Shown here piece by piece: positions 33,597-60,238 of a DNA stretch of 64,000 bases. The notes under the pieces are model-generated. The model did not search any database. It was not told the DNA's origin and saw nothing but the letters and a program-made list of their open reading frames with translations. The translations under genes were made by a program, and so were the position numbers. Source of the stretch: a virus. How positions within the stretch are numbered: the stretch's first letter is position 1; every line of letters begins with the position of its first letter. The stretch covers positions 1 to 64,000 of the IMG/VR virus record IMGVR_UViG_3300023110_000024; one strand, 5' to 3'.

Positions 33597-34028
33597 ATGA
33601 AAAAAGTTATCTGTAGCGGGGCATTATTTTATGCTCTATCATCTAATAGATTCTTATTTTTACATCGAGCTCGCAGTAAGCATTCTGATACATGGGGGCT
33701 TGTGGGAGGTGTAAATGAGGAAAAAGAAACTCCTTGGAATGCTCTTGAGCGAGAAATTGTAGAAGAAATATCACCTACTGAAATCAAAAAAACTATTCCT
33801 TTAGAAACTTATGTAAGTAATGATAACTTTTTTACTTTTCATACATATCTTTGTTTAGTTGAAAAAGAATTTATTCCTGTGCTAAATGAAGAACATGATG
33901 GATATGCTTGGGTAAGTTATAAGAAGTGGCCTCGACCATTACATCAAGGCCTAAAAAATACTCTAAATAATCGTATCAATCAAGTTAAATTAGATACTGT
34001 GATGAATCTAATCAATCTTATTAGTTGA
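33597..34028 (+). CDS. Nudix hydrolase
   Basis: 143 residues with a near-complete Nudix box at G38-x5-E44-x7-R52-E53-I54-V55-E56-E57. WGLVGGVNEEKE begins it, and the preceding FLFLHRARSKHSDTWG is the usual lead-in. Full-length Nudix domains are of this size. It would hydrolyse a nucleoside diphosphate linked to some group, such as an oxidised nucleotide, a nucleotide sugar or an RNA cap; the substrate is not predictable. A nucleotide-sugar substrate would link it to the glycan island, but that is speculation. It ends the plus-strand gp14-gp15 block and overlaps the convergent fibre gene by 8 bases. Confidence 0.85.
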   Translation: MKKVICSGALFYALSSNRFLFLHRARSKHSDTWGLVGGVNEEKETPWNALEREIVEEISPTEIKKTIPLETYVSNDNFFTFHTYLCLVEKEFIPVLNEEHDGYAWVSYKKWPRPLHQGLKNTLNNRINQVKLDTVMNLINLIS

Positions 34029-35088
34029 AGGTGTAAGTTACATCAGTACCAGATTCTTCTCTAACAATACGTGGATCTGGATTTCCTGTATCAACCATAT
34101 TTCCATTTTGTGTTAGTGTACCTAAAAAGTCAATACTTCCTGTTACATATAAATCATCTACAACATATGTCATACCACTAGCTGAGTCTAACTCTAGGTT
34201 TCCAGTAGTTGTGTCAATAGTATTGCCATCAACTATACCAATTTGAAGATTACCAAATGTAAAACCTGCCGCTGAACTACTACTCCAAGTATGCATTCCT
34301 GCTCCATCAGTGTGTAACAGTTGTCCAGAAGTTCCTTCCATAATATTAAAATCTGCTAGTGTTTGTGGTGGTGTTACAAATGATACTGTACCGCTGCCAT
34401 TAGTTGTTAGCACTTGTCCAGTAGTTCCGTCTGTAGTTGGGAATGTATAGTTACCATTAAAATTAACACTGCCCATAACTGTTACAGTACCGCCTACTGA
34501 ACTTACTGTTAAGTTTCCTGAGAGTGTGTTTATGTTATTTGTTGTGGTTGCAAGACTATATACATTTCCCCAGGTATTAGTTGTTGCTCCTAAACTGTAA
34601 ACAGCACTAATAATAGGTGCAATTGAGCCTGTAATATTTACATTTCCTGATGCAGTTATATTACCAGATGCAGAGTCGAGAATCAAAGTACCCGAAGTTG
34701 TGTCAATCTTTAGGTCGGAATCAACACCAATTCTAATATTACCAAAGGTTCGTGTTGGATCTGCAAAGGACACGGTGCCTGAGCCATCTGTTTTTAATAT
34801 CTGCCCAGCAGTTCCATCAGCTCCAGGAAGTTCATAGGAACTGTTGATTTTATATCCTGTTGTGATGAGATCGGCTGCTAATACAACATTCCCAGTAGCT
34901 CCTAATACTAAATCTCCTGAGGAGGTATCAATAGTGTTGTCAGTTGTTACGCCTACTTGAATATTATCTACAGTTTGTTCGCCTGTAGTTTCAGCAATAA
35001 CATTCCATACAGTGCCATTATATTCCCAAGTAGTTCCGCCTTCTGAATATTGTTGCCCACTTGAGGGCGATGCGGGAAAACTAATCAT
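34021..35088 (-). CDS. Modular tail fibre / adhesin protein, 355 aa
   Basis: It starts with the W-x-Y/W-NG-x-W module (TTWEYNGTVWNVI), then alternates IDT..G.L.LDSA.GN blocks (NTIDTSSGDLVLGATGNVVL) with G.IL.TDGSGTVSF blocks. It ends RIVREESGTDVTYTFN, nearly the same tail as the 756-aa fibre (RISREETATQVIYRFN). GGAAGGAG precedes the ATG and GATAAATA lies before that. The repeats are typical of trimeric beta-rich fibre shafts. Function in receptor binding is inferred from composition and locus. Confidence 0.7.
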   Translation of the reverse strand: MISFPASPSSGQQYSEGGTTWEYNGTVWNVIAETTGEQTVDNIQVGVTTDNTIDTSSGDLVLGATGNVVLAADLITTGYKINSSYELPGADGTAGQILKTDGSGTVSFADPTRTFGNIRIGVDSDLKIDTTSGTLILDSASGNITASGNVNITGSIAPIISAVYSLGATTNTWGNVYSLATTTNNINTLSGNLTVSSVGGTVTVMGSVNFNGNYTFPTTDGTTGQVLTTNGSGTVSFVTPPQTLADFNIMEGTSGQLLHTDGAGMHTWSSSSAAGFTFGNLQIGIVDGNTIDTTTGNLELDSASGMTYVVDDLYVTGSIDFLGTLTQNGNMVDTGNPDPRIVREESGTDVTYTFN

Positions 35089-35109
35089 AGTTTGCTCCTT
35101 CCTTTACAA

Positions 35110-35117
35110 TATTTATC
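35110..35117 (-). promoter_or_regulatory. Late promoter GATAAATA
   Basis: GATAAATA, 22 bases before the ATG at 35088; it overlaps the end of the upstream 245-aa gene by two bases. Confidence 0.5.
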
Positions 35118-35853
35118 AGTCTAGGATTTTATTTTTGAGGTGATGTTCTACTACTTCGTTAGGACAGTTGATGTATAAGGCTTCCATCTCATCTAGCCAA
35201 TTGAGTAAGTGTCTAATAGTAGGTGCTTTTCCTGCCTCAAATAATTCCTCAACAGTTTGAATATATTCTAAACAGTGCCGTCTTGCTACTAGTGGATGGA
35301 TTCCGCTCCATTCTAAACTCTCTTGGATTCCTCTAGGAATAGTTCCTGTGGCTTGGAATTCCTCAATAGCTCTCCTAAATGCTCCGCGGATTTTTTCACG
35401 CTTATCATTCTCACGAACCATCTCGGGTGGAATTTCATCTGGAAGATTAAAGTTTTTTCGTAGTGCATCAATTTGATCTTGATAGCTTTGTAATTCTTCC
35501 ATTGCGTTACGAATAGCAGTTCTAGAACTTTCAAGTCCTGCTTCAAGTTCCTCTGCTTTTAGTTGTGCCATAGGATCATTGATTTTCATACGATATTGTT
35601 CTATTCGTAATTCATTTTTCTTATGTCTAAACCAAGTTTCTCGTAAAGCGTTCAAACGGTTTTGTTGTTGCATGGCGCATTGTTGTAACCATACAAGAGG
35701 TGTTTGTCCTGAATATTGTAAATCAGCAATAGTTGTTTCTGCGTTTTTAGAAACAATAAGTTCATCAATTTGTTTTTGTACTATAGGCAGGGTTGCTTCA
35801 AGTTTTACAGCGATATCATTTGGTACTTGTCTAATATCAATTTCTGTTGTCAT
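35116..35853 (-). CDS. Coiled-coil protein within the fibre locus
   Basis: 245 residues, unlike its neighbours: mostly alpha-helical, with a long charged coiled coil from about 65 to 140 (NRLNALRETWFRHKKNELRI, then AQLKAEELEAGLESSRTAIR) and a globular C-terminus containing WSGIHPLVARRHCLEY and HLLNWLDEMEALY. No signal peptide. A GAGGAT site is present. Position among fibre genes suggests a fibre assembly chaperone or tail connector, but no motif proves it. Confidence 0.58.
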   Translation of the reverse strand: MTTEIDIRQVPNDIAVKLEATLPIVQKQIDELIVSKNAETTIADLQYSGQTPLVWLQQCAMQQQNRLNALRETWFRHKKNELRIEQYRMKINDPMAQLKAEELEAGLESSRTAIRNAMEELQSYQDQIDALRKNFNLPDEIPPEMVRENDKREKIRGAFRRAIEEFQATGTIPRGIQESLEWSGIHPLVARRHCLEYIQTVEELFEAGKAPTIRHLLNWLDEMEALYINCPNEVVEHHLKNKILD

Positions 35854-35864
35854 AATCCTCTATA

Positions 35865-36896
35865 TTATATGCCAGAGCTCACAGCTCCTTCAGTTGAGTT
35901 GCTCGCTAGACTGTTACTTGTAGTTATTATTTCTATCATATCCTCGTGACGAATATGGTTTATTCTGCTTATAGCGTCACCGTCACCTATCAAATCATGT
36001 CCGCCAGCGCCCATAATAACATCGCCATTGGAGCAGGTTTGAACTTCCTTTGTGGCTGTTGCTAGTGTTATTGATAAAGTAAGAACATAATCGTCATATC
36101 TTAATTTTCTAATTTGATTCCAATTAGCACTATAATCTGGTTCTTCCCCGCCAACTAGCACAATACAATTTCCTCCAGATGCTCCGTTAACATCGTTTCG
36201 TGCTGTTAAATATGAATCCATAGAGGATACAAATATAGAAGTAGAGGATGATCCTGCCATACGATATTTTTCATATGATGCTGTGGCAGCTCCTGCTATA
36301 ATTCCATCTCTTGCTTCGTCACTCCAACCTTGGCAAACAAAAGCATCTTCTCCATTGCCTGCTACAGTATGATGCCATCGTGCTACTGTAAAACTTGGAT
36401 AAGTTGTTGCTGCTGCCGAGTCATCATTTCTTAGTCTGTCTGGAGCGTTTATTACGGTGAACATTCCCGATCCCGCATTTCTACCACCAAAGAAATATTG
36501 TTCTGTAGCGGTTCCAGTTCCCATCAGTCCAGTTCGTGCTGAGGTTAGATTATTATTTGTAATAGTTACTGATGCTTCTGATGAGATTTGAAACTTTTCT
36601 ACTGCTTGTCTGTATCCACCAGATCCTCTACCCTGTGCTACATATATATTTGTTCCATCAGATGTTGAGCAGTGATGTCTTCTATCTTCAACCATAGTAG
36701 TTGTTGATGTTGTAACTACCACACTATCATCAAATCTTATTTTTTGTAATGAATCTGTTTGAGAGCCTGGTATTGACGGACGCCCGCCATTGTATATAGC
36801 AACATCAGCACACCCGTGCCCGTCAATTATAACTGCATCAGCTAAATCAGATGTTGTAATATCAAAAAATCCATCGGCAAATATAATGGCTGCCAT
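35865..36896 (-). CDS. Kelch-like beta-propeller adhesin (copy 1)
   Basis: 343 residues from the ATG at 36896, which overlaps the upstream stop as TAATG and has GGAGGA before it; an upstream ATG at 36917 would put that ribosome site inside the gene. Six repeats of about 45 residues each contain a (E/Q)K(I/L)RFDD-type element (LQKIRFDDSVVV, DRLRNDDSAAA, IRKLRYDDYVL) followed by a T/N-rich strand, an R and a Gly-rich turn. This is the layout of a six-bladed propeller closed by the N- and C-terminal strands. Three paralogs are in this locus. Glycan or protein receptor binding is likely but unproven. Confidence 0.65.
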   Translation of the reverse strand: MAAIIFADGFFDITTSDLADAVIIDGHGCADVAIYNGGRPSIPGSQTDSLQKIRFDDSVVVTTSTTTMVEDRRHHCSTSDGTNIYVAQGRGSGGYRQAVEKFQISSEASVTITNNNLTSARTGLMGTGTATEQYFFGGRNAGSGMFTVINAPDRLRNDDSAAATTYPSFTVARWHHTVAGNGEDAFVCQGWSDEARDGIIAGAATASYEKYRMAGSSSTSIFVSSMDSYLTARNDVNGASGGNCIVLVGGEEPDYSANWNQIRKLRYDDYVLTLSITLATATKEVQTCSNGDVIMGAGGHDLIGDGDAISRINHIRHEDMIEIITTSNSLASNSTEGAVSSGI

Positions 36897-38104
36897 TAGC
36901 TTATTCCTCCACCACAAGCGGCTTGTTTTGCTTCTTGTAGTCTTGTAGAAAGTATTTGACAGGCGGCGCTATCATCAAATTTCATTTTTTGTATAACATC
37001 GTTTCCTATTCCGCTCTGAGAACCAGCAGAAGTCCAACCATTAGATACATACGCACTTCCGTCAGCATAATCTCCTGCGCTTACATGGCCGGCTGCTCTA
37101 GTAGAGGTTCTATATGTTAGAACTGTGGAAGTAGTTGGATCATCATATTTGAATTTCCAAAAGGACCATGTAGAATAACTCACAACATCGCCATTATATT
37201 CTAGCATAGTTCCATTAGTGATAGCATTATAATTGGCTGTTGTTACTGCAGCAGCATCATCCGCATATCTGTGTTTCTCTCCAGATATTCCAGTTATGGA
37301 ATTACTCATTCCTGGAACTCTACCACCTACTCTTAAGTAATCATATTCCTGTCCTACGGTGCTAGCTCTATAATATGTTTGTGACATTGGGTTTGCTGCA
37401 ACTGCAACAACATTAGGGTCATCCCATCGATATTTGTCTATATCAGTTTGATAGAGATATCCTCCACTGCCACCAATAAAATCAAATTTTTCCATTGCTA
37501 CATTATGAATATCAGTATAATTAGATACTAAATTTCCTGTTGCAGAGCTTTCGATGCCGCTGGTAGTCGTAGCACCATATCCAACTTTCCAATTGGTTCT
37601 ATTAAATGATCCAGACCAATTTGCGGTTCCGTTTGTACGAAAAGCAGCAACATCATAATTTCTTGTAACTGAGGCGGTAGTAGTAAATGCATTATCTTCA
37701 GCAGGAATAGTACCAACTTTATGAGCCAAATCATCGAATTTGACTTGATCTATATGATCAAGATAATTTGGGATTGGAGTTCCATCTTCATCAAAGCCCA
37801 AGGGTTCTCCTCTTCCTCCCATTACTATTATAGAAATATTTCTTGGATATAGCTGGTGGATATAAGGAAGATTGAGATATTTTAAGGCGCTTATATAAAC
37901 TAATTTATTTGTAGTTGGGCATTTTACTGCGTCTAATACTGCATTAACTGGTTTGCCTTGGGTAATGTCTTGTCCTGCAACTTGAACAGGTCCTCGATTC
38001 ATATATGTCGTAAAGTCAGACGAGTTTGCGATTCTTGATAATTGTATTGTTGTTGGGTAAGTTTCTTTTGATTTTACACTAAAAAATCTAAATGTCGTTG
38101 CCAT
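36896..38104 (-). CDS. Kelch-like beta-propeller adhesin (copy 2)
   Basis: 402 residues, with about six repeats marked IDQVKFDDLAH, MEKFDFIGG, IDKYRWDDPNV, KHRYADDAAA, FWKFKYDDPTT and IQKMKFDDSAA. An N-terminal 90-residue segment (FFSVKSKETYPTTIQLSRIA) is not shared with copy 1 and may attach it to the tail. The end EAKQAACGGGIS matches the closing strand of other copies. GAGAG precedes the ATG with CATAAATAC upstream. It heads a two-gene propeller pair with copy 1. Confidence 0.65.
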   Translation of the reverse strand: MATTFRFFSVKSKETYPTTIQLSRIANSSDFTTYMNRGPVQVAGQDITQGKPVNAVLDAVKCPTTNKLVYISALKYLNLPYIHQLYPRNISIIVMGGRGEPLGFDEDGTPIPNYLDHIDQVKFDDLAHKVGTIPAEDNAFTTTASVTRNYDVAAFRTNGTANWSGSFNRTNWKVGYGATTTSGIESSATGNLVSNYTDIHNVAMEKFDFIGGSGGYLYQTDIDKYRWDDPNVVAVAANPMSQTYYRASTVGQEYDYLRVGGRVPGMSNSITGISGEKHRYADDAAAVTTANYNAITNGTMLEYNGDVVSYSTWSFWKFKYDDPTTSTVLTYRTSTRAAGHVSAGDYADGSAYVSNGWTSAGSQSGIGNDVIQKMKFDDSAACQILSTRLQEAKQAACGGGIS

Positions 38105-38177: not shown

Positions 38178-39869
38178 TTATAGAGGCTGGATCCAGTTTC
38201 CTACGCCTGTGCCGGAATCTACGACCCAAATATAAAGAATACCTGAGTTGCGATCCAACCACATCATGCCCTCATCTGGAGAGGCAGGTGCTGCGGTATC
38301 AACTGTACAAGCTCCGCCAACTTTTACGCCATCAACATACAAGTCGTTTCCTTGTACTGTCAATGGAATATTTACTGCTGGAGTTGCAGGATCAACCATG
38401 TGAATGGTTTGAGCATAAATGTTAGTCCAGCGAAGAGCTGCTCCGCCCAAGTCCCATGTCAAATCAGCGTTTGGGTTGATAGTATCGGCAGCTACACCAG
38501 CAAGTGAGCTTGCGCCAATTACACCAAGTGTTCCGCCAACTGTTGCGCCGTTTGTCACAGCCAATGTATCACCAGCAGTTACCGCACCAGTTACAGCCAA
38601 AGTTGAACTCAATGTTGCTGCGCCTGTTACATTCAATGCATCACTAAGTGTAGCCACTCCAGTTACGTCCAAAGTTGATGACATTGTAGCTGCGCCAGTT
38701 ACGCCCAAAGTTGAGCTTAGTGTAGTTGCTCCAGATACAGTGGTAGCTCCGTTGATACTAACGTTGCCACTATTTGAACTTAAAACCAAATCACCAGTAA
38801 TTGTGTCAATAGTTTGATCATCTGTTACAGCAATTTGGATATTACCAAAGTTAGTGCTTGGAACTGTCAAGTTGTTAACTGTAATGGAGTCAAAATAACC
38901 ATGGTTCCACATCGTCAATTCATGGCCCAAGTCGTATGTTTTGTCTGCTGATGGCATAACATGACCTGAAAAGTCAGCGCCACCAAATGCTACGTTGCCC
39001 AGTGTTCCTGAGAAAACTTCGCCTGTGTTAGTTGCGTCTGGCATAAAGGTAAATTTCTGAACTGAGCGATCAAAGCCAAAGAAACCAACCTTTGCTGCTG
39101 TGCCGTCGTGCCATTGGTACTCAATACCGCGATCCAATCCGTCGTTTGTAGTAGGAGCAGTGTCGCCACCCAGTGTCATAACGGGATCATCAAGTGTTAC
39201 AGTAGTTGAATTTACTGTAGTTGTAGTTCCATTTACAGTCAAGTCACCTGTAATAGTTACATTACCAAGTGTGCTTGTTCCACCAGTTGTGGAGCCTGTA
39301 ATCAAAATGTTACCAGCAATAGTTACATCACCGCCATCACCACTTGGGGAAGGATCAATAACAATAGCATTGGTTGCTGAACTAATAGTGTTGTTTGAGC
39401 CATCAATTGTCAAATCACCAAGAACTACTTTGCTACCATAAATGTTATTCCAAACATTAGAAGCAGTACCTAAATCGTATGTAGCAGTAGCCAATGGAGT
39501 AATAGTGTTTGAGGAAACAACGCCATTCAATGTAGTAGCGTCTGTAACAGCCAAAGAATTACCAAGTGCTGTAGCGCCAGTTACAGTGAATGTTCCACCA
39601 ACAGAAGCGTCAGTTGTAAATGTTGAAATACCTGTAACATCTAATGTGCCAGTTACAGCCAAGTTGTCATCAACTTGTGTATTACCAGTTGCAGAGTCTA
39701 AGATCAAGTCTAAAGTCTTAGTGTCAATCTCGTTGTCTGCTGTAATTGAGAGTTGAACATCACCGAAGGATGGTTGAACATTCCATACAGTACCGTCCCA
39801 TTCCCAAGTAGTCGCGCCGTAGGTATATAACTGTCCTACAGTAGTTGCGCTCGGAAAAGCAAAAGCCAT
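38178..39869 (-). CDS. Modular tail fibre protein, 563 aa
   Basis: It begins with the W-W-DG-W module (TTWEWDGTVWNVQ), then an IDT..LDSATGN block. Many copies of LAVTGA.T/LSSTL.VTG follow, a shaft repeat of about 12 residues. In the middle is the shared block TTTTVNSTTVTLDDPVMTL with GLDRGIEYQWHDG, found also in the 399- and 1280-aa fibres. The C-terminus is a GMMWLDRNSGILYIW module ending NWIQPL. AAAGGAG precedes the ATG. It is probably a trimeric fibre shaft; receptor unknown. Confidence 0.72.
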   Translation of the reverse strand: MAFAFPSATTVGQLYTYGATTWEWDGTVWNVQPSFGDVQLSITADNEIDTKTLDLILDSATGNTQVDDNLAVTGTLDVTGISTFTTDASVGGTFTVTGATALGNSLAVTDATTLNGVVSSNTITPLATATYDLGTASNVWNNIYGSKVVLGDLTIDGSNNTISSATNAIVIDPSPSGDGGDVTIAGNILITGSTTGGTSTLGNVTITGDLTVNGTTTTVNSTTVTLDDPVMTLGGDTAPTTNDGLDRGIEYQWHDGTAAKVGFFGFDRSVQKFTFMPDATNTGEVFSGTLGNVAFGGADFSGHVMPSADKTYDLGHELTMWNHGYFDSITVNNLTVPSTNFGNIQIAVTDDQTIDTITGDLVLSSNSGNVSINGATTVSGATTLSSTLGVTGAATMSSTLDVTGVATLSDALNVTGAATLSSTLAVTGAVTAGDTLAVTNGATVGGTLGVIGASSLAGVAADTINPNADLTWDLGGAALRWTNIYAQTIHMVDPATPAVNIPLTVQGNDLYVDGVKVGGACTVDTAAPASPDEGMMWLDRNSGILYIWVVDSGTGVGNWIQPL

Positions 39870-39914: not shown

Positions 39915-40145
39915 TTACATTATTCTTGGTTGCACCCAAGTATCTTGTGTTCTAAAATACAGTTTGCCATTTTCTGTATTCAACCACCTATTCGCTTCAA
40001 TTACATCCTCAGGTTCAGTATCTTGAGCAAAAATAGTCTTTTTATTTTTTGTAACCCACTGTCCACCATTCCAAGCCCAAGTTCGTCCTTCGTGCTCAAA
40101 TAGTTCTCCTACAGTAGTTCCAGTGGGAAAAGCAAATGCTGCCAT
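39915..40145 (-). CDS. Stand-alone fibre N-terminal module, 76 aa
   Basis: It consists only of the two-part module seen at the N-termini of larger fibres here: TVGELFEHEGRTWAWNGGQW and then NRWLNTENGKLYFRTQDTWV. AAGGAGA precedes the ATG. It is one of three such short genes near 40-43 kb. It may be a small tail protein, a decoration subunit, or a remnant left after loss of the distal fibre part. Coding is supported by conservation of the module and by the ribosome site. Confidence 0.68.
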   Translation of the reverse strand: MAAFAFPTGTTVGELFEHEGRTWAWNGGQWVTKNKKTIFAQDTEPEDVIEANRWLNTENGKLYFRTQDTWVQPRIM

Positions 40146-40158: not shown

Positions 40159-40404
40159 TTATGTTGGCTGATAGGCAGAGCCCATTTGTACCCATGCCCC
40201 TGAAGTGTCATAGAAATACATTCTGCCGTTTTCTGTGTTAAACCAATAGTTACCTGTTATTGGTGTTGGAGTTGTTGGGAGAGTATCTTGTACATACACT
40301 TCGTCACTGTATAATCGGTCCCAAGCAGTTCCATTATACTCCCAAGTGTTATCTCCTTCAGTATATAAGTTGCCTGCAGAGCCTGCAGGAAATGTAAGTG
40401 CCAT
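40159..40404 (-). CDS. Stand-alone fibre N-terminal module, 81 aa
   Basis: Same architecture as the 76-aa neighbour: NLYTEGDNTWEYNGTAW followed by GNYWFNTENGRMYFYDTSGA and a final W-V-Q. AAAGGAGAA precedes the ATG, and a perfect TATAAATA lies 19 bases upstream. Having its own late promoter argues that it is made as a separate protein rather than being a decayed end of another gene. Confidence 0.7.
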   Translation of the reverse strand: MALTFPAGSAGNLYTEGDNTWEYNGTAWDRLYSDEVYVQDTLPTTPTPITGNYWFNTENGRMYFYDTSGAWVQMGSAYQPT

Positions 40405-40422: not shown

Positions 40423-40430
40423 TATTTATA
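40423..40430 (-). promoter_or_regulatory. Late promoter TATAAATA
   Basis: Exact T4 late box 19 bases before the ATG at 40404; it includes the stop codon of the FG-GAP gene. Confidence 0.58.
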
Positions 40431-42600
40431 CAGTTGTCCAAGGTTTAGCCATAGCTTCCGCTGGTGGTAATGCACCAGGACTAGATGATCCCAGCCATTC
40501 AGCATTAAATCCAGCAGGATTAGTGCCTATGTGTGTTGGTTGGATTATAGTGGCTGGATTTGACAATAAGGATATATGTTCTCCATCATCAGCTACGCCA
40601 ACAAAAAACAGTCTTGAATTAGCAGCAGCTATTGATTCATACTGTCCAAGATATCCTGGAAATCCTGGTATTTGTACTTCATTAGTATCTGGATTCATAC
40701 CCATTATAGCCCAACAAGGATATACAAATGAATTATCAGGGAAGGATCTTGCATAAATCAACATACCATAATAGGATATGCCTGCTCTTAAATTAGGTAC
40801 AGTTGTTGATCCATTCTCATTAACAAATTGATTAGTATCCGAATCCCAACTTGTAGTTATTGTTCGAGGAATATTTTGGGAAGCTCCTATATTAACAGCC
40901 CCTAGATTGTTTAGTCTTACCCGCATGAGTCTTGCTATTGTTGTTGTATTAGCATCTGATCCTGTTGAATATCCAACAAATGGGAATGTCTGCTCTGTCG
41001 TATTTTCTACATTGAGGGTAGTCATATTATCTGTTGAGACTGTACTATAAAACGAATCTATTCCTGCTATAATATTGGGTTCAAAAACATAAGCAGCTCC
41101 TGAGTCAGTTTGGGCATCACTAGATTCTTCACCGTATGCCCCGGCGATAGCATATGATTCACATATAGCTACTTGCTCCGCAAATCTATCTGTTCTTCCT
41201 GTGCTTTGTAAATTAGGATTGTCTACTGTATCAAGTAACTTTCCTGTTGCTGGATCAAAGACGTATGCTTTGCCAGAGTAGAGATCCGACGAAGTATGAT
41301 TCTCATTAGGAGCACCAACTATAGCATACGATTCACATATATCAACACCATAACCAAACTGATCACTTGCTGTTGTAGTAAGAGCATTTGGATTGTCTAG
41401 TGTATGAAGTAGAGCACCTGTTGCTGGGTTGTAAATGTATGCTTTACCAGACCATAATCCTGTACCACCACCTGGGTTACTTGATCCATCATCTTCTCCA
41501 TGTGCACCAACTATAGCATACGATTCACATATAGCAACAGCATAACCAAATAGATCATTATCAGCTACGTCAAATACATTTGGATTGTCTAGTGTATAAA
41601 GTAAATTTCCTGTTGATGTGTCGTAAATATATGCTCTACCAGAGTTGGCTCCTCCTTGATCTTCATATGGTGCGCCAACTATAGCATACGATTCACATAT
41701 ATCAACCCGGTATCCAAACCTAGGGGTAGTACCACCAGAGGTTGGATTGTCTAGTGTATAAAGTAAATTTCCTGTTGATGTGTTGTAAATATATACTTTA
41801 CCAGAGTCGGCTACTGCTCCTTCATCTGCATGAGGAGCACCAACTATAGTATATGAATCAGAAATAGCAAGACCCCAGCCAAATCTAGCAGTGGTTTCTG
41901 GATTTGGGTTATTTAATGTACGAAGTAAATTTCCGGTTGATGTGTCGTAAATATATACCTTGCCAGAAGCAGTTCCGCCAGTATCACTTTCTCCATATGC
42001 ACCAATTACGGCATAAGATTCAGATATATCAACACAATAACCAAAAAAATCATCTGCTGATGTGCCATCAACATTAGGGTTGTCTAGTGTATAAAGTAAA
42101 TTTCCTGTTGATGTGTCGTAAATATATGCTTTACCAGATTTATTTCCGCCAGCATCCTCTTCCCAATATGCTCCAACTATAAAGTATGAATCAGTGATAC
42201 CAACACCCCAGCCAAATCGATCACTAAGTGCATCACCATAAACATTAGGATTTTCTTTTGAGTATTTTAGGTGCAGGCTTATTGATTCTCTCCATGTCAT
42301 TGGTCGCCCAATAGGATTGACTCCCCAAGCATTTTTTGCGACAGCTTTATCAGTTTCAGCTGATGCAGTCGTAAATACTGACCCTTCGTTAATCCATTGC
42401 CCATCTAAATATGTATAAAGCCTGCCATTATCAGTATCAGTCCAATGTTGGCCCTCAACTGCTACTGTTGGAGCATCAGCTTGAAAGTAAGTTTTTGACG
42501 GGTCTAAATATTCCCATCCAGTTCCGTTATACACCCAGGTTGAAGTTCCATCTGTATATGTTTGCCCTACAGTGGTTGCTTCTGGGAATGCTATTGCCAT
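40426..42600 (-). CDS. Seven-bladed FG-GAP beta-propeller adhesin, 724 aa
   Basis: An N-terminal two-part module (TTWEYNG-like STWVYNGTGW, then GRLYTYLDGQWINEG) leads to seven repeats of 55-75 residues. Each carries D-x-FG-(Y/W)-x-V-x-I-x-(E/D)-SY-x-I-VGA then SGKAYIYDTSTGNLLYTLDN, the FG-GAP pattern of integrin-type propellers. Asp-rich loops that would bind calcium are present. A C-terminal domain of about 200 residues follows with TTSWDSDTNQFVNENG. Repeats are nearly identical in DNA. AAGGAGAA precedes the ATG. Adhesion to the host surface is inferred. Confidence 0.75.
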   Translation of the reverse strand: MAIAFPEATTVGQTYTDGTSTWVYNGTGWEYLDPSKTYFQADAPTVAVEGQHWTDTDNGRLYTYLDGQWINEGSVFTTASAETDKAVAKNAWGVNPIGRPMTWRESISLHLKYSKENPNVYGDALSDRFGWGVGITDSYFIVGAYWEEDAGGNKSGKAYIYDTSTGNLLYTLDNPNVDGTSADDFFGYCVDISESYAVIGAYGESDTGGTASGKVYIYDTSTGNLLRTLNNPNPETTARFGWGLAISDSYTIVGAPHADEGAVADSGKVYIYNTSTGNLLYTLDNPTSGGTTPRFGYRVDICESYAIVGAPYEDQGGANSGRAYIYDTSTGNLLYTLDNPNVFDVADNDLFGYAVAICESYAIVGAHGEDDGSSNPGGGTGLWSGKAYIYNPATGALLHTLDNPNALTTTASDQFGYGVDICESYAIVGAPNENHTSSDLYSGKAYVFDPATGKLLDTVDNPNLQSTGRTDRFAEQVAICESYAIAGAYGEESSDAQTDSGAAYVFEPNIIAGIDSFYSTVSTDNMTTLNVENTTEQTFPFVGYSTGSDANTTTIARLMRVRLNNLGAVNIGASQNIPRTITTSWDSDTNQFVNENGSTTVPNLRAGISYYGMLIYARSFPDNSFVYPCWAIMGMNPDTNEVQIPGFPGYLGQYESIAAANSRLFFVGVADDGEHISLLSNPATIIQPTHIGTNPAGFNAEWLGSSSPGALPPAEAMAKPWTTV
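41400..42150 (-). repeat. Near-identical DNA repeats within the FG-GAP gene
   Basis: Blocks containing GTGTATAAAGTAAATTTCC followed by CTGTTGATGT recur near 41590, 41755 and 42085, with diverged versions between, each corresponding to the YIYDTSTGNLLYTLDN strand region. Such in-frame repeats favour gain or loss of blades by recombination and are prone to assembly collapse. Confidence 0.7.
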
Positions 42601-42872: not shown

Positions 42873-42889
42873 GCATTCAACCTATTGTA

Positions 42890-53048: not shown

Positions 53049-53056
53049 TATTTATC
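53049..53056 (-). promoter_or_regulatory. Late promoter GATAAATA
   Basis: GATAAATA overlapping the stop of the 1280-aa gene, 23 bases before the ATG at 53026. Confidence 0.5.
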
Positions 53057-56000
53057 AACCAAGTGCAATCGCCATCACTAGGGCAAATTCTTCTGTCGCT
53101 ATAGGTAATTCTCTTAGCGTTCCTGTTTCAGCTATTTGAATGTCTTTTGTTGTAATCATTTCTGTAGCGTCAATATTTGTAGCATCAATATCATTTACTA
53201 TAATATCACCTGGTAATCCACTAAATTCTTCAGCTATATTGGTGGCATCTGGGATAAAGGTAAATGCTTGTGCTGATTTGTCCCAACCAAAAAATCCTAG
53301 CTTTGGATCTGTGCCATCGTGCCATTGATATTCAATACCGCGATCCATTGTATCCGCCACTGTTTGTGGCTCGTCTCCGCCCAATGTAAATATTGGATCG
53401 TCAATAGTAACAGTAGTTGAATTGACTGTTGTAGTTGTGCCTTGTACTGTTAAATCTCCACCAACTACTACACTACCAGACACACTCAAGTCATCATCTA
53501 CAATAGTTTGCCCTGTAGCTGAGTCAAGTATGAGATCCATGCTAAGTGTATCTATTTCATTATTTGCTGTTACCGCTATTTGCAAATCTCCTACTGTAAG
53601 TGATCCTGGAATAGATGACCCAAAGTTAAATTCACCATTTCCATCGCTCAATAAAAACAGTCCTTCAGTAGTCAAAGGATCATTTGTTACAGTATCTAAA
53701 TCTACCATTAGTCTCAACTCAGGATAGATAAAATCATAAGTTGCATCGCCATTTGACACTAACATTAATCCTGGTATGGCTGTCGATGAAGGCGGTAGTA
53801 ATGGATTGATTGGGTCTGCGTATGTCCTATCTGCTTTGACAGTAGTTCCAACGGATTGTGTTACAGTAGTATTGACATCATACATATTATCAAGTCTAGT
53901 CATCCAATCTGATGGATTTCTAAAGTTGAATCCACCCATTCCATCAGTAGTTAATACAAGACCCATTACAGTTTGATAGTCATCAATACCATCAGGTGTA
54001 AAGTCAATATCAGTTAGCCCAACAAGTGTTTTTGTAATAAGAGTGTTTGGTTCTACAAAATTATACGCACCTCCGCCTCGGCTTGTTAGAACATAGTCAG
54101 CGTTGGTTGCGTCTGTAAAATCTACATCAGTTGCGTATTCAAGTTCTTGATCTACAAATTTATAATAAGGATCTGTTGCGTTACCAGTGCCTGTAGATAT
54201 CATAATCTTATTAGCAGTAGTCTTTGGATCATTAGTAATTGTATCTACGTCTGGTAAGTTATTGAACTCGTTGAATGTGCTAAAATGATATGTTCCGTCA
54301 CCCTTACTTGTCAATACCAAATTAGGAACAATGTCTGGATTATTTGTTGAAGCGTCTAAGTTACGCAGGTTTTGAATGCGTGGCTCAGCCTCTTTGAACA
54401 TATAAGTTCCATTTGTTCCAGTGCTTGTTAGCACAAGGTTCTCTGTTGTTTTAGGATTATTAGTTGTGTCATCTATATCAACTAAAAAGTCTAAAGTAGG
54501 AAACTTGAAGCTATATGTTTCATCTCCGTCTGTTACAAATACTAGATTAGGTGTAGTAGTTGGGGCATAAGTTGTGCCTGTTACAGGATGAACTGTAGTG
54601 TCATAATCAAAGTCTTCCCATCGTCTGTTGAACAAGTTGTTAGCAATATCTTTAAAGCTAAAAGTGCCATTACCGTTACTTGCTAGTACCCAATTTATCT
54701 CGCTGCCAGCAGTTGTTCCATTTGTAACATCCTGTAATGTTCTCATCAAAGGTTGTATAAATGAGAAGTTATCACTACCGTCTGTAATCATTATATAGCC
54801 AGCACCAGCGCCTGTAGTTGTTACTGAAGCAAATGAATCAAAGTCTAGTCTTTTGAATCCAAATGTGCCATCGCCACGTGATGTCATAACTAAATCATCT
54901 ACGTTACGTGGATCATTAGTTAGTGTATCAACATCTTCTGTAGTTTTTAGAAGTGGCTGTTTAAAGCTATAAGTTCCGTCTCCGTCGCTTGCCAAACTCC
55001 AATTATTTTGTGTGCTGTTAGCATAATCAATATTCAATAAATGATTGAAGTTTATATTTTCAAATGTATAATTACCCGCTGTATCACTCATTAATACAGT
55101 GTTTGGTGTTACAGCATTGCCTACATTTACATCGTCTAGTCTAGCTACAGATGGCATTTCAAATTGGAAGTTACCTGCGCCTGTGACAGTTAATACTGCT
55201 CCTATAGCATTATCATTGACTGGGTTCCAGCCTACAATATAATCTGTAAGTATGTTAGGAAGTTGGAATTCATATTGATCTGAACCCATTCCTAAACTTG
55301 TAAGAACTAGTCCTTGTGTAGTAATAGGATCTAGTGCAGTTGGTGTTTGTACAACATCTAATAGTCCTCTTACAGTCTCAATAGGCTCTACAAATTCGCA
55401 TATACCTGCTGCGGTTGTTTTTAGAATTAGATTTGGTGTTCTGAATGTTGTAGCATCTACATTTACATCTTCTAATACTTCCAAGCGTCTTTGTACTGCT
55501 TTCCATTCGTAGTTTGTTCCTGTGCTAGTTAGCACTAAATCAGGACCAATACTTGTGGACCAATCAATGTTTGTGATAGTTCCTGTAGGTGAAAAATCTA
55601 CAGTTGCTCGTTGCCAATCATACTCGCTACCGCCTTTGGAAGTTAGCACTAACCCTGGCATTGACTGTGGAGTGTTAGTAGCAAAATCTATGCTAGTAAC
55701 TTGATTGAAGTCTGCATATTCCCAACGGAATGATTGAACTCCTGTTGTAGAATCAATGTGTGATGTTAGATGAACTCCGTCTGTTGCGTATGGATTTGTA
55801 GTAGCCCAGTCAATTAAGTTGATGCCAGTAGGGGCAAAATCAACAGTAGGAACTCTCCAATTATAAGTTTCATCACCGTTAGATGTCATTACTAATCCGT
55901 CAATATTGTGCGGATCATTTGTAACAAAATCTATATTATATAAGTCGTTAAAGTCAGCAAAGGACCATCGAAATGAGTGTGCGCCAGTATTAGGATCAAT

Positions 56001-56897
56001 ATAAGATGATAAATGTAATCCTGAGAATGTATAAGGATCATTAGTAATCCAATCAAGTCCTGTTATGTCTTTCAAATCACTTGAGGGTGTTTGCCAAGTA
56101 AATTCATTTGGGTTAGGCCCTGATGTTAAAACTTTTCCTGCTGTTGTAAGAGGATCGTTTGTGTACCAATCAATCCCTGTTAAGTTAGTAAATTCTGAAG
56201 TAGGAACTTGGAATTGATATAACCCGCTGCCAATAGTTGTAAGCACAAGTCCAGGTGTAACTGTTGGATCTGGTGAGGCTCCCCATACAATGCTAGTAAG
56301 GTTATTGAAGTCTGCTGTTGGTATTTGGAAATTGAATCCGCCTACTCCATCTGTAGTTAGAACAAGTCCTGGAGTGTCTGTTGGATCATTTTCTTTTAGT
56401 ATATCCTGTGCTTCAAGGCTTACATCAAATAATTTTTTTAGTTCTGGTTGTTGCCATTCCCATATACCTGTTCCAACATCTGTTAGAACAAATCCGTTGT
56501 TACCTGCTGTTGTATGATCTATATCTTTTAGATGAGAAAATAATGTATCTCTAAAACTATAAGTTCCGTCACCATCACTAATCAATACAGTGTCTGTGAT
56601 AGCAGCATTAGAAAAATCAATATCAACTAATTCATCTAATTGCATATTGAGCGAAGAGGTAGGAACAAATCTAAATGTTTCGTCACCTTGAGATTGTAAC
56701 AATAATAAAGGAGTTACTTTTGCGTCATCTCTATTAGGAATGTCATATAAATGCTCAATAGCATTTATAGGTTCCATTGTAGAGAATGAATTTATAACCT
56801 CGCCTGTTTCAGATAATGTTACGGAAGACTGATCTCCATAAGCGAATTTTAAGTGATTGTCATTATCTAAAGATACCGACCATTTATTTTTTGCCAT
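53055..56897 (-). CDS. 27-repeat giant fibre protein, 1280 aa
   Basis: After an N-terminal KWSVSLDNDNHLKFAYGDQ module come about 27 degenerate repeats of 30-45 residues with the pattern L-x-D-(I/V)-D-x-x-T-N-(n)-GLVLTS-x-GDGTY-x-F-x-x-P. Each is two strands joined by a turn and a linker. The C-terminal 200 residues switch to an IDTLSMDLILDSATGQT block and the shared TTTTVNSTTVTIDDPIFTL with RGIEYQWHDG. Regular repeats of this kind would form a long rod or solenoid. GAGGAA precedes the ATG. A long tail or baseplate fibre is the likely role. Confidence 0.72.
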   Translation of the reverse strand: MAKNKWSVSLDNDNHLKFAYGDQSSVTLSETGEVINSFSTMEPINAIEHLYDIPNRDDAKVTPLLLLQSQGDETFRFVPTSSLNMQLDELVDIDFSNAAITDTVLISDGDGTYSFRDTLFSHLKDIDHTTAGNNGFVLTDVGTGIWEWQQPELKKLFDVSLEAQDILKENDPTDTPGLVLTTDGVGGFNFQIPTADFNNLTSIVWGASPDPTVTPGLVLTTIGSGLYQFQVPTSEFTNLTGIDWYTNDPLTTAGKVLTSGPNPNEFTWQTPSSDLKDITGLDWITNDPYTFSGLHLSSYIDPNTGAHSFRWSFADFNDLYNIDFVTNDPHNIDGLVMTSNGDETYNWRVPTVDFAPTGINLIDWATTNPYATDGVHLTSHIDSTTGVQSFRWEYADFNQVTSIDFATNTPQSMPGLVLTSKGGSEYDWQRATVDFSPTGTITNIDWSTSIGPDLVLTSTGTNYEWKAVQRRLEVLEDVNVDATTFRTPNLILKTTAAGICEFVEPIETVRGLLDVVQTPTALDPITTQGLVLTSLGMGSDQYEFQLPNILTDYIVGWNPVNDNAIGAVLTVTGAGNFQFEMPSVARLDDVNVGNAVTPNTVLMSDTAGNYTFENINFNHLLNIDYANSTQNNWSLASDGDGTYSFKQPLLKTTEDVDTLTNDPRNVDDLVMTSRGDGTFGFKRLDFDSFASVTTTGAGAGYIMITDGSDNFSFIQPLMRTLQDVTNGTTAGSEINWVLASNGNGTFSFKDIANNLFNRRWEDFDYDTTVHPVTGTTYAPTTTPNLVFVTDGDETYSFKFPTLDFLVDIDDTTNNPKTTENLVLTSTGTNGTYMFKEAEPRIQNLRNLDASTNNPDIVPNLVLTSKGDGTYHFSTFNEFNNLPDVDTITNDPKTTANKIMISTGTGNATDPYYKFVDQELEYATDVDFTDATNADYVLTSRGGGAYNFVEPNTLITKTLVGLTDIDFTPDGIDDYQTVMGLVLTTDGMGGFNFRNPSDWMTRLDNMYDVNTTVTQSVGTTVKADRTYADPINPLLPPSSTAIPGLMLVSNGDATYDFIYPELRLMVDLDTVTNDPLTTEGLFLLSDGNGEFNFGSSIPGSLTVGDLQIAVTANNEIDTLSMDLILDSATGQTIVDDDLSVSGSVVVGGDLTVQGTTTTVNSTTVTIDDPIFTLGGDEPQTVADTMDRGIEYQWHDGTDPKLGFFGWDKSAQAFTFIPDATNIAEEFSGLPGDIIVNDIDATNIDATEMITTKDIQIAETGTLRELPIATEEFALVMAIALG

Positions 56898-56909
56898 TCA
56901 TCATTCCTC

Positions 56910-58823
56910 TTATATAATTCCAGTAACTGTTTTCTGATTTAGATATATCAGTGTAATTCTCAAGTTATTGACATCAAAGTCAAAGTCTATCTTTATTGTT
57001 CCATCAGGATTTCTTATTTTGGTAACTGCGGCTGTATTAAGTGGTTCAGCAAATTGTATAAAGGTACCTGTTCTTCTTACAAGTCCGTTACCTCTACCTT
57101 TGCCAGTAATTTCGTGAATGTAAAATGCTCCACTACCGTTGCCTCCTAATATATCATCTTCTTCATATGCGCCTACAATAGCAAACTCGCCATCAGCAGC
57201 CAATGAGGATCCATATCTATCATTATCTCCGCTACCTATTACATTTGGATTTAGAATATCATTAATTCGTTCACCATCTGCTGTGTCAAATACATAAACT
57301 CGTCCAGTATCAGTTATGCCAGCAATATCTTCTTGATGAGCTGATGCCATAAAGAAATAATCTGAAACTGCAACCTTATAACCAAAAAAGTCGTTTGCGT
57401 CTGGCACATATGCATTTGGATTTACTATCTCGTATATTGGAACATTAGGCCTATGTCCTTTGATATCATAAATATAAATCCTACCTGATCCAGCTCCAGT
57501 AGGTGTCTCATAATTTGGAGCACCAATAATGGCAAATTCATTTGACATATCCATTGACAAACCAAACATATCTGTGTTATTATTATTTGGGTTGTTAATT
57601 GTAAATAAGTGATCGCCAGTAGCAACTTCAAATACATATACTGCATCTTGTGTATGTGTTCCTACCATAACATATACATCATTTATAGATACCACATCAC
57701 CAAAGTCTTGTCCTGTTGCTACTGGATTTTCTAATATCCAACGCGGTTTTGACAAGTCTGCCAAATCATATATGTATGCTTTGCCAGTAGGGTCTGCTTT
57801 AGGAGCGCCTACTACTAAATGAGTTTCTGATAGAGCTACACTATACCCAAACCAATCCTCAGCATCTCCAATGGATATATCTGGATTAGTAAGAGTGTTA
57901 GTCGGGGCTCCTGTCATTGCTGTGAGGCTATAAACATATGCTCTACCTGATTTGTTCCCCGTAGCTACTGCATCATCATCTCTCCAAGATCCAATAGCAA
58001 CCCAATTACTGTTTATTGCTACGCTAGCTCCAAAGTGATCGTCTTGTGCATCACCCACTGCTCTTGGATTGACTATTTTTTGTATTTGTGTTCCTGTTGA
58101 GTCATATAGATATGCAGATCCAGCACTTGCTTCACCCGATGCTGATGCTTCTTTAGGGGCGCCTATAATGCTAATACCGTTAGCAACATCTGCCGAGTAC
58201 CCAAAGTTATAGCCTACCATGCCTGGTGTTGGGTTAGGTACTTGTGCTGTTGTCGTAACAGTAGTTGTATAGTTAGCTACAAATATTGTCTCTTCATCTG
58301 AGTTTCCAGATCCTAATACTGTAAAGTCTGTATTACCAGTTTGAATAATCTGATATTCAACACCTTTTACAATTCTATTAGCAGAGACTTCTTCGCCTAT
58401 TCCTACTTCTGTTGGATTGCTAATAAAAGTATAATCTTGATTTGGTGTAAAGAATCTTTGATCGACAAACACCAATGTATTGTTTGGATCTAGTTCGTTA
58501 TCGCCATCATCAAGTATATCAGTTAGTGGTCCAAACATTACATCTTGTTTATCAAATCCACTATAGAATACTTCGTTGGTGATAAAAGTTGGTTGATCAT
58601 ATCCGTTTAGCCTCCATACACCATCTTGGAAGAACTCAAAGTTCATTAAGTCTGTATTATAACGAACGTATCCTTCAACACCTATTGGACGCTCTGCTGT
58701 AGTGCCTCTTGGTACAAGCATTACAGTTCCATCAAATGAGGTGATTTGGGTTAATGGATCATACTTCAATCCTTTACCTGTAATAACACGAGCATTTGTT
58801 GTTTGATTTTTGATTAGTCTCAT
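56910..58823 (-). CDS. Seven-bladed FG-GAP propeller adhesin, 637 aa
   Basis: The N-terminus has RPIGVEGYVRYNTDLMNFEF with DGVW, the surface module common in phage tail proteins, then a TQITSFDGTVMLVPRG strand pair. From about residue 195 seven repeats begin with FGYSADVANGISIIGAP, DHFGASVAIN, DWFGYSVALS, DFGDVVSIND, DMFGLSMDMS, DFFGYKVAVS and DRYGSSLAAD, each followed by a G-x-(A/V)Y-(L/I/V)-Y strand. This is a complete propeller related to the 724-aa gene but more diverged. It is a probable receptor-binding protein. Confidence 0.74.
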   Translation of the reverse strand: MRLIKNQTTNARVITGKGLKYDPLTQITSFDGTVMLVPRGTTAERPIGVEGYVRYNTDLMNFEFFQDGVWRLNGYDQPTFITNEVFYSGFDKQDVMFGPLTDILDDGDNELDPNNTLVFVDQRFFTPNQDYTFISNPTEVGIGEEVSANRIVKGVEYQIIQTGNTDFTVLGSGNSDEETIFVANYTTTVTTTAQVPNPTPGMVGYNFGYSADVANGISIIGAPKEASASGEASAGSAYLYDSTGTQIQKIVNPRAVGDAQDDHFGASVAINSNWVAIGSWRDDDAVATGNKSGRAYVYSLTAMTGAPTNTLTNPDISIGDAEDWFGYSVALSETHLVVGAPKADPTGKAYIYDLADLSKPRWILENPVATGQDFGDVVSINDVYVMVGTHTQDAVYVFEVATGDHLFTINNPNNNNTDMFGLSMDMSNEFAIIGAPNYETPTGAGSGRIYIYDIKGHRPNVPIYEIVNPNAYVPDANDFFGYKVAVSDYFFMASAHQEDIAGITDTGRVYVFDTADGERINDILNPNVIGSGDNDRYGSSLAADGEFAIVGAYEEDDILGGNGSGAFYIHEITGKGRGNGLVRRTGTFIQFAEPLNTAAVTKIRNPDGTIKIDFDFDVNNLRITLIYLNQKTVTGII

Positions 58824-59200
58824 TATACTTCCAAATAGCTTATCATCACACCTAAATCTGTTAACATCTGGTTACCAGGAACTAAACTAGGGTCGTCTAG
58901 TACGCCGGGTTGAGAAAATAAAACAACTTTATCACCTTCACCTAATACAATCTTTTCCGTATCAAATGTAAAAGTTTCTTCAGGAGCTAAAGTAAGATTA
59001 TTGATAACTTTGGTAGCATTTGGATCATTTTGCCCAGCACTAACTGGATCGCCTGCTCCAACAATATGCAAATCAAAACTTGAACTTTCAGTTGAGTTAT
59101 TATTACATACCGTAATAGTTGTAACTGCCAGAGTTTGTCCTGGTTGTGCAACTAATAATTCCAAATTCTCATTTCTTAATCTAACACTCTTAACCGCCAT
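58823..59200 (-). CDS. Small beta-sandwich virion protein, 125 aa
   Basis: Paralog of the 114-aa protein at 52682-53026. KSVRLRNENLELLVAQPGQT, then VCNNNSTESSSFDLHIVGA and EETFTFDTEKIVLGEGDKVV, ending LGVMISYLEV. The last element recurs in small structural proteins of marine T4-like phages as I recall. AAGGAT precedes the ATG; the stop overlaps the next start by one base (TAATG). It may be an Ig-like decoration of the fibre base. Confidence 0.62.
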   Translation of the reverse strand: MAVKSVRLRNENLELLVAQPGQTLAVTTITVCNNNSTESSSFDLHIVGAGDPVSAGQNDPNATKVINNLTLAPEETFTFDTEKIVLGEGDKVVLFSQPGVLDDPSLVPGNQMLTDLGVMISYLEV

Positions 59201-59209
59201 ATTTTATCC

Positions 59210-60238
59210 TTAAAAAAGCATACTAAAAATCAGTGAACGATTCCTGCTTATAATCTCATCTCTTGTTTCATGTCTGTTCACGTAGTATATTCCTGTGTCA
59301 CCTGGTCCTTCCTCTGAGGTATATAATCTTACACCTTCTGTGGGTCTTGTTGGTGTATTACCAGGTACTATTTCTTGTATTTCTATAACGTGATCCACTA
59401 CAACTACACCACCGTTTATGGCAGTTAGTTCTAAATTGCCTCCTGCCATAGCAGGGTGAATATTATTTTCAGTAAATTGCAATCCTCTTGTAGTAATGTG
59501 ATCGTTGTCAAATGTCATTTTAAGATCACCATCTACAGTAACTTCAACTCTGCTTGGATCGCCATCAAAGTCAAAATCATACGCAATGACTGAAGTATCG
59601 TAAGTAGAAATAATACTACCTGTGCCAATATTAGCAAAGGCATAATACATATAATCTACTAGAGCACGAACATTAGGAATATTATCATCATCAAGAATGG
59701 CGTCATTGCCATTATCAACAATATCAGCACCCACGTAATTGAAACACTTTCGTTCATAATCAATGCTATTAGTAACACTGATAACTTCGTTACCAACATC
59801 GATAAAAAGTGTTCCAGGCGATTTAATACCATTGATATAAATTGGTAGCGTACCATATCCAAGATCCTCAAATCTAAAAGTTCCTTGTCCTTTATCGCCT
59901 CCCATTTCCCAAGCAATAGCTTCATCCCAAACCATTCTTACTCGAGATCCGTTGAACCCTCTATCAATCTCAATACCTGATTGTCCTTCAAGAACTGTGC
60001 TAATTCCTGATCCATCTTTGTATTTGTTTAGCACAATGATATTATCATTAATATCTAAATCTGTTGAGTTGATTGTAGTAGTTTTACCTTTTACTTCTAA
60101 CTGTCCATTGATAATAACTTTACCAATAAGCTCGTTATCCGTATTGACTTGTCCTCTAGATGTATCTAGAATAATATGTTCACCAGGTTCAACCTTAACA
60201 ATGTAATTACCGTTTTCTACATTTAATACTTTTGACAT
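59210..60238 (-). CDS. Fibre or baseplate-associated protein, 342 aa
   Basis: The N-terminus (VENGNYIVKVEPGEHIILD) leads to a G.L.VKGKTTTINSTDLDIND segment that aligns with the TTTTVNSTTVTIDD block of three fibres, and GQSGIEIDRGFNGSRV with W..AIAWE is a diverged copy of the DRGIEYQWHDG block. The remainder is unique, with NVRALVDYMYYAFANIG and a C-terminal RPTEGVRLYTSEEGPGDTG. AGGA precedes the ATG. As the first gene of the fibre operon it may be the attachment protein nearest the baseplate (inference). Confidence 0.62.
   Translation of the reverse strand: MSKVLNVENGNYIVKVEPGEHIILDTSRGQVNTDNELIGKVIINGQLEVKGKTTTINSTDLDINDNIIVLNKYKDGSGISTVLEGQSGIEIDRGFNGSRVRMVWDEAIAWEMGGDKGQGTFRFEDLGYGTLPIYINGIKSPGTLFIDVGNEVISVTNSIDYERKCFNYVGADIVDNGNDAILDDDNIPNVRALVDYMYYAFANIGTGSIISTYDTSVIAYDFDFDGDPSRVEVTVDGDLKMTFDNDHITTRGLQFTENNIHPAMAGGNLELTAINGGVVVVDHVIEIQEIVPGNTPTRPTEGVRLYTSEEGPGDTGIYYVNRHETRDEIISRNRSLIFSMLF

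Follow-up and report, generated by a model that had tools for sequence, protein, structure and literature searches.

A lineage-specific, module-sharing array of predicted fiber and adhesin genes between gp23 and gp15 of an uncultured T4-like phage

Results

The gp23-gp15 locus and its shared modules

We analyzed the first 64,000 nt of the virus record IMGVR_UViG_3300023110_000024 (76,601 bases in full; the 64,000 nt are hereafter the window), in which an array of 23 open reading frames (ORFs), all on the minus strand, occupies 26.2 kb at positions 34021-60238. T4-like virion genes border both ends of the array, with gp23 on one side and NUDIX/gp15 and the tail sheath (phrog_10581) on the other. 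The major capsid protein gp23 is T4-like (PF07068, E 1.6e-94), the gp15 beside the array matches T4-gp15_tss (PF16724, E 1.6e-24), and the distance from gp23 to gp15 is 29 kb. By its capsid protein the phage is nearest to large phages, namely Vibrio phage 2.275.O (70.5%) and PA5oct-type Pseudomonas phages, CBB, GAP32 and Phosso (67%). It is an uncultured, marine-type T4-like member of the PA5oct/Phosso/Vibrio 2.275.O group and, judged by these relatives, probably of jumbo size.

An original prediction, made from the sequence without database searches, had described the array as assembled from a small kit of shuffled modules and had proposed an all-against-all alignment. We ran this at the protein level by blastp (seg, composition-corrected, E<=1e-3) on the 23 array proteins and the 35 other proteins of the window, and it bore the prediction out: 34 of 253 array-array pairs were linked, compared with no array-other pair and 1 of 595 other-other pairs, and residue-shuffled array proteins gave 0 links in each of ten replicates. 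Blastp linked 16 of the 23 genes, and profiles added four more (59210, 49194 and the pair 58823/52682, E 7.5e-5; genes are named here by their lower coordinate), so that 20 of the 23 have a block in common with another array gene. Three genes, 35116, 48394 and 52470, had no link by blastp or profile. A profile of the 59210 family, made from the relatives and the window, matched four window proteins.

At an independent E-value (iE) of 1e-3 or less, the modules were counted as follows, given as domains/proteins: WNG 6/6, GRLY 7/6, IDT 10/5, DDPV 5/4, DLGW 6/3, KW 6/5, TDG 22/3, FG-GAP 14/2, KFDD 20/4, NLYYT 5/1 and VTGATT 9/2. Because the module profiles were seeded from the window, the seeds match by construction; independent support comes from blastp and from left-one-out runs of IDT, DLGW and KW. 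The blocks of the predicted kit, at least seven, were confirmed, and one had been overlooked, DLGW ('TYDLG...W..IY'), which is present in 34021, 38178 and 51082. For the KW.F..D..N.L.F block the outcome was mixed: left-one-out runs recovered it in 49194 (iE 1.3e-6), in 51082 (2.5e-4) and, more weakly, in 42890 (0.0032), but left it doubtful in 53055 (0.047) and failed to recover it in 49868, where it was dropped. Propellers and a lectin domain were also found as predicted, with FG-GAP_2 in 40426 (E 3.9e-58) and 56910 (E 2e-41), Laminin_G_3 in 48394 and a weak Kelch match in 35865; the fiber/carbohydrate-binding-type domains that Pfam recognizes in the array are FG-GAP_2, Laminin_G_3 and Peptidase_S74. 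Across the listed repeat families (20 of 33), DNA identity between module copies is 60-89%, and the duplications are therefore old; near-identical donor copies were absent from these families.

Gene content of the array

The capsid-side end of the array is formed by two core proteins of 342 amino acids (aa) (59210..60238, with a DDPV block at aa 39-106) and 125 aa (58823..59200), followed by a 637-aa protein (56910..58823) that combines a conserved N-terminal domain (~1-190) with an FG-GAP propeller of seven repeats (196-575). A 114-aa paralogue of 58823 lies at 52682..53026. Further DDPV blocks are carried by three proteins that match phrog_697: 53055..56897 (1280 aa, E 7.3e-34), in which 19 TDGxGTxxF repeats (iE<=1e-3) precede IDT and DDPV and the doubtful KW is N-terminal; 49868..51067 (399 aa, E 2.8e-39); and 38178..39869 (563 aa, E 1.1e-44), which runs from an N-terminal WNG through IDT, DDPV, DLGW and VTGATT to a C-terminal GRLY.

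KFDD repeats occupy four genes. There are six in 44943..46052 (369 aa; phrog_19111, E 3.9e-19), where their spacing suggests a propeller-like arrangement, five in 43937..44941 (334 aa), four degenerate matches in 36896..38104 (402 aa) and five in 35865..36896 (343 aa, whose Kelch match is under the cut-off). The 44943 protein had no match among named phages, and in two viral-contig scans it matched solely strains of the same phage. Megablast of 34021-58000 against named phages likewise gave no match.

Besides 38178, WNG is found in 40426..42600 (724 aa; WNG, GRLY, an FG-GAP propeller of seven repeats and a C-terminal part), in the final array gene before NUDIX/gp15, 34021..35088 (355 aa; WNG plug, four IDT, TDG and DLGW), and in three small genes encoding a stand-alone WNG plug plus GRLY: 42611..42847 (78 aa, with a longer frame beginning at 42880), 40159..40404 (81 aa) and 39915..40145 (76 aa). 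The 342-aa product of 42890..43918 has an N-terminal anchor (1-60), weak KW, IDT, GRLY and a Peptidase_S74 chaperone domain (residues 233-293 of 342; 34.4 bits against a curated cut-off of 22), together with tail-fiber PHROG matches. VTGATT shaft repeats, two DLGW, IDT and a KW near the C-terminus make up 51082..52467 (461 aa); 46052..48322 (756 aa) has five NLYYT repeats and TDG, and 49194..49856 (220 aa) a KW module. The Laminin_G_3 (concanavalin-like) match is in 48394..49197 (267 aa; E 1.9e-6, 28.5 bits against a cut-off of 27.6). An ORF of 71 aa, 52470..52685, has no relative among the 29 relatives described below, and the 245-aa product of 35116..35853, which by eye looks helical and not adhesin-like and has weak PHROG and Pfam matches, is perhaps an assembly factor.

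The WNG plug and the GRLY element

W-Y-NG-W and GRLY had been taken for the two parts of one module. They proved to be separate modules, an N-terminal WNG and a mobile GRLY. In the window WNG opens 6 of the 6 proteins bearing it. We also ran both profiles on the de-duplicated proteins of 41 loci and of two further ones, L011 and L012. Among the matches listed, WNG accounted for 66 domains in 66 proteins on 36 contigs, 62 of them beginning at residue 6 or earlier, while none of 72 GRLY domains was N-terminal by this measure. At least two N-terminal WNG genes were present in 17 of 35 contigs, and 21 of the 27 testable same-contig WNG pairs had unrelated remainders. Independent cases are fewer, because the contigs include near-duplicates, either of one another or of this phage. 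When 23 of the WNG/GRLY contigs were scanned, three had Gp23 and the same three gp15; the others were fragments or other phages.

Profiles also detected GRLY in the 56910-family protein, toward its N-terminus, in 17 of the 29 relatives (though not in the window's 56910), and in several long fibers close to the C-terminus. One relative that spans the locus, G015, has both WNG and GRLY by profile. Searches of PDB sequences and Pfam with WNG/GRLY gave nothing credible. A by-eye suspicion that the modules occur on sheath and neck proteins yielded marginal matches only (iE 0.017 to 0.19) and was dropped.

The structure predicted for 40159 is confident (predicted local distance difference test score, pLDDT, 89.6). 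The best alignment of its GRLY half was to the multiplexin-type (collagen XV/XVIII) trimerization domains (VIA Z 5.2; 47 residues at 3.3 A against 3n3f_B, of 53 residues), where a Z below 8 may reflect a common arrangement only. After these came phage tailspikes and fibers, among them CBA120 TSP3 (Z 4.2; 39 residues at 1.9 A) and the A-1(L) fiber (Z 3.3). On this model GRLY is possibly a trimerizer.

Exact sites of TATAAATA, which we take to be the T4 late promoter motif, number 8 in 76.6 kb, five of them on the minus strand. Two minus-strand sites, at 40423-40430 and 42865-42872, precede the small WNG genes 40159 and 42611 by 18-19 nt. We make no claim of late-promoter regulation from so few sites. 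For cyanophages, NATAAATA is mentioned in one report (PMC2984593).

A conserved start and a variable remainder among relatives

We compared 29 gp23 relatives, chosen from 80 loci for having sequence downstream of gp23. Orthologues of 59210, 58823 and 56910 are consecutive and identically ordered in all 30 genomes, except that in G003 and G020 an additional gene separates the first two. Blastp alone matched the three proteins in 29, 28 and 22 of the 29 relatives, respectively. Profiles, which were built from those same genomes, found 58823 in 29 of 29 relatives and the 56910 N-terminal domain at the N-terminus in 29 of 30 genomes, the exception being L087. Beyond that domain the 56910-type protein differs widely: it is 169-282 aa long in 24 of the 29 relatives and 351 aa in L072, carries very long extensions in G013 (1,974 aa), L057 (2,267 aa) and G007 (3,133 aa), and has a propeller in the window. 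Profile searches placed the N-terminal anchor of 42890 in 25 of the 29 relatives, often twice per genome; the proteins bearing it are 164 to 2,200 aa long.

Only four of the 29 relatives span the locus (G012, G015, G016 and G017). Each of these four has a partner for every one of the five flank genes tested, at 34-79% identity, with one of the 20 alignments covering only 52%. Full-length blastp partners of the 23 array genes numbered 2, 2, 1 and 1 in these four genomes, respectively, and blastp matches of any length 6, 7, 4 and 6; for 12 of the 23, blastp found no relative in the whole set of 29. The distance from gp23 to gp15 is ~25, ~48, ~31 and ~44 kb, and in G017 the interval encodes chains of up to 3,740 aa. 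The original prediction had stressed that the array is far more than the fiber set of T4, but such a size is ordinary for the group.

Among named phages, 59210 gave no match by tblastn, and PA5oct was found by profile only: its gp324, in the same slot, contains the 59210 domain (aa 95-186, E 2.4e-13), is annotated as a putative tail fiber and is noted in the record as detected by electrospray ionization tandem mass spectrometry (ESI-MS/MS). The 27.7-kb slot of Phosso holds NAD-related and hypothetical genes, with three annotated as tail fiber or minor tail, and was therefore not counted as a matching array. Two observations concern the arrays of relatives themselves. In G015 a protein that by eye is a subtilisin-like protease (G015_45764, L096:8170-9738) lies beside an FG-GAP gene, and G005 (L102-L103) has two very long ORFs, one of 5,602 aa and one of at least 3,309 aa, the latter with three DDPV blocks plus IDT, DLGW and VTGATT in one chain.

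Modules on different backbones

One type of FG-GAP propeller was found behind four N-termini: WNG-GRLY (40426), the 56910 core, in G015 a short start of unrelated sequence and in G001 a 42890-type anchor (anchor E 4e-14; 61% identity over 114 aa). We also built a tree of 44 DDPV blocks, from a short alignment and with weak deep nodes, in which the blocks of 38178, 49868 and 53055 formed a clade with Kyanoviridae copies (ultrafast bootstrap 100), and the 59210 copy grouped among the relatives' 59210 copies, apart from the blocks of the other three window genes. The tree does not support duplication of the resident 59210 block into those three genes. The grouping of these DDPV copies with Kyanoviridae indicates that part of the kit was exchanged with cyanophage-like phages, in either direction. 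Recombination between lineages, alongside the sharing of modules, is thus supported by high gene turnover between fixed flanks, by one propeller on four N-termini and by the cyanophage-grouped DDPV copies.

Stability within the species

Strains gave a different picture from species. Four strain contigs are 99.92-99.99% identical to the phage and collinear in the parts of the array that they cover (all of it in G022 and G023, the part up to 55486 in G021 and that up to 39819 in L114). The 3.9 kb of array above 56334 are covered by a fifth contig, L113, which is 97.6-98.7% identical and has no swap there. A comparison of strains for presence and absence of whole genes, which had been proposed as a check, therefore found no exchange in the stretches of array covered by the five contigs.

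Unique single-nucleotide polymorphisms (SNPs) in the array genes comprised 31 synonymous and 10 nonsynonymous changes (expected nonsynonymous share 0.77, p 2e-12), and a rough whole-gene estimate of the ratio of nonsynonymous to synonymous substitution rates (dN/dS) was ~0.10 for the array versus 0.13 for the flank. The array genes are under purifying selection. All 23 frames are open, with no stop among the strain SNPs in the array; the genes are kept and hence presumably expressed. The idea of a reservoir of tips swapped among strains finds no footing in contigs that are collinear, 99.9% identical and under such selection. Taken with the differences between species, this constraint within strains describes an array that is hypervariable between species yet constrained, with no silent cassette store.

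Neighboring genes

At the NUDIX/gp15 border, Pfam gave no match for the neighboring gene 30927-32102. A NifU_N iron-sulfur scaffold gene (60993-61388) lies between gp23 and the array; it has a blastp match in only 1 of 29 relatives (G001, 80%) and is 72-74% identical to the versions carried by phage C48C1 and by records titled Acinetobacter phage. The adjoining gene 61388-62518 (376 aa), outside the array, has a weak Calx-beta match under the cut-off and looks lipoprotein-like by eye; it is missing from L113, and was thus gained or lost recently, next to the array. Elsewhere in the window, a 2035-aa gene (15668-21775) contains at 20258-20599 a repeat with a 96-bp register, in which two overlapping 246-bp stretches are 86% alike. 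Past the window end, a gene of the full record (G000, 65508-67178) has unusually many strain differences (24 synonymous and 23 nonsynonymous) and, as aligned, a stop at codon 196 in L113.

Discussion

Three capsid-side genes are kept in order and the remainder of the locus is a lineage-specific, module-sharing set that is stable within the species. We consider it probable that this is a lineage-specific host-recognition cluster, in which recombination or replacement at module borders changes the tips over long times. The products would be trimeric fibers and adhesins mounted on the virion, docked through the N-terminal WNG plug, the 42890 anchor or the 56910 N-terminal domain. GRLY would keep three chains in register, IDT, DLGW and VTGATT would build the shaft, and Peptidase_S74 would act as a folding chaperone, with FG-GAP, KFDD repeats and the LamG domain as predicted tips binding surface glycans or proteins. 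Exchange partners may include cyanophage-like phages; tips would change while docking ends stay, and host range would shift between lineages. It is plausible that several predicted fibers are present on a virion simultaneously.

Several points weigh against this interpretation. None of the five strain contigs revealed a close strain whose array differs, so no exchange event is directly visible, and the DDPV tree is based on a short alignment. The putative docking role of WNG is read only from its position, as given by a profile made mostly from N-terminal modules and by a capped set of contigs that includes near-identical phages and the phage's own strain. The trimerizer idea for GRLY draws on a middling structural similarity (Z 5.2) with no sequence match, and Foldseek returned nothing at E<=0.001 for the GRLY model (best 0.13). 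The 59210 model has weak gp34-like Foldseek matches (E 0.014) and reaches a Z of at most 5.7, and we assign it no fold. Finally, several array proteins match phrog_697, a family whose category is 'head and packaging' and not tail.

That last category also speaks for a different role, in which the products decorate the head, neck or sheath as whisker fibers or form baseplate parts instead of binding receptors. The DDPV protein of cyanophage S-B64 adjoins two genes annotated as neck proteins, and the array end itself adjoins NUDIX/gp15; the FG-GAP, LamG and Peptidase_S74 domains, the tail-fiber PHROG matches of 42890 and the annotation of PA5oct gp324 as a putative tail fiber nevertheless make such a role rather unlikely. 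We hold a similarly low opinion of the idea that the stand-alone 76-81 aa WNG-GRLY proteins are fiber-assembly chaperones or caps and not docking parts: the GRLY part of 40159 does match phrog_3304, 'L-shaped tail fiber protein assembly' (E 6e-4), but WNG plus GRLY is also fused N-terminally in 40426 and in many longer proteins elsewhere.

The strain data bear on two further explanations in opposite ways. Collinear, 99.9% identical contigs, purifying selection and, in the repeat families listed, module copies that diverged long ago are all what one would see in a fixed, elaborate adhesion apparatus, with every product at a set virion position and modules left by old duplication with little exchange. 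Its first half, that all products are assembled together, is compatible with a host-recognition cluster; as a whole it has somewhat less than an even chance, since it sits poorly with high gene turnover between related species in the same slot, with the same propeller type on different N-termini and with DDPV copies allied to cyanophages instead of the resident copy. Conversely, short plug-plus-GRLY genes beside full fibers, and shared modules generally, look like cassettes, as if tips from a silent or alternative reservoir were recombined into one expressed fiber within the population. We rejected this as very improbable on the strength of the 23 open frames and absence of stops among array strain SNPs, the dN/dS of 0.10, the lack of near-identical donor DNA among the repeat families listed, the lack of any rearranged strain and the absence of a reverse transcriptase (RVT_1), a sign of diversity-generating retroelements, from the 76.6-kb record, itself a fragment.

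Within the preferred interpretation of a host-recognition cluster, WNG stands out as a module that is nearly always N-terminal, recurs on neighboring fiber-type genes and has no convincing Pfam match. Word searches of the literature found no description of it, which is weak evidence of absence. We offer it as a candidate common docking end. The bolder proposal that it is a widespread, undescribed standard plug, such that one socket type would give each virion a combinatorial mixture of tips and each burst a mixed specificity, strikes us as decidedly doubtful.

The kind of locus is already known. It has precedents in host recognition clusters (HRCs) (PMC7029224), in module exchange among receptor-binding proteins (PMC10684548) and in multi-fiber jumbo phages (PMC9700779, PMC10253068). 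The HRCs of pelagimyophages and cyanomyophages, with mean sizes of 44.6 and 34.2 kb, are likewise large non-syntenic islands in the T4-like structural region, with fiber- and lectin-type genes between conserved virion genes (PMC7029224). Their published borders are VrlC and gp14, whereas here they are gp23 and gp15 (VrlC was not searched for); the 26-kb array described here also differs in having no Pfam-recognized glycosyltransferase or metabolic gene and in distributing its content over many short genes, of which six carry the WNG plug. The giant DDPV/YadA-type structural protein of Kyanoviridae (phrog_697; P-SSM4, S-B64, S-SSM2 and BUCT-ZZ01) has the same DDPV block, but two in one very long chain in three of the four phages (one block seen in BUCT-ZZ01); in the window the blocks are divided among three genes, alongside other modules. 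The gp323-gp328 slot of PA5oct (Arenbergviridae) shares the convergent gp23 ... NUDIX/gp15 order and, in gp324, the 59210 domain, but measures 7.3 kb and has a single large fiber.

Like phiKp24 (PMC9700779) and RaK2/K64-1 (PMC10253068), jumbo myophages with many fiber genes in which N-terminal docking is shared and distal domains vary, this phage combines recurrent N-termini with diverse remainders. In those phages, beta-helical depolymerases that dock through T4 gp10-like domains make up most of the fibers; none of the 23 array genes has a pectate-lyase/depolymerase Pfam match at E<=0.01, although remote ones could escape, and none has a Pfam match to a T4 gp10-like docking domain. Smug et al. 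2023 (PMC10684548) likewise describe conserved N-termini with exchanged C-terminal domains across taxa, in a general survey that is not about the gp23-gp15 locus. Literature word searches found no description of the gp23-gp15 slot of this lineage with its conserved three-gene start, or of its division into many plug-bearing genes. What the present locus adds to these systems is a clear contrast: the capsid genes, the neck genes and the three core genes of the array stay in place and most other array genes vary between species, so that two time scales, exchange between lineages and stability within the strain, are separated.

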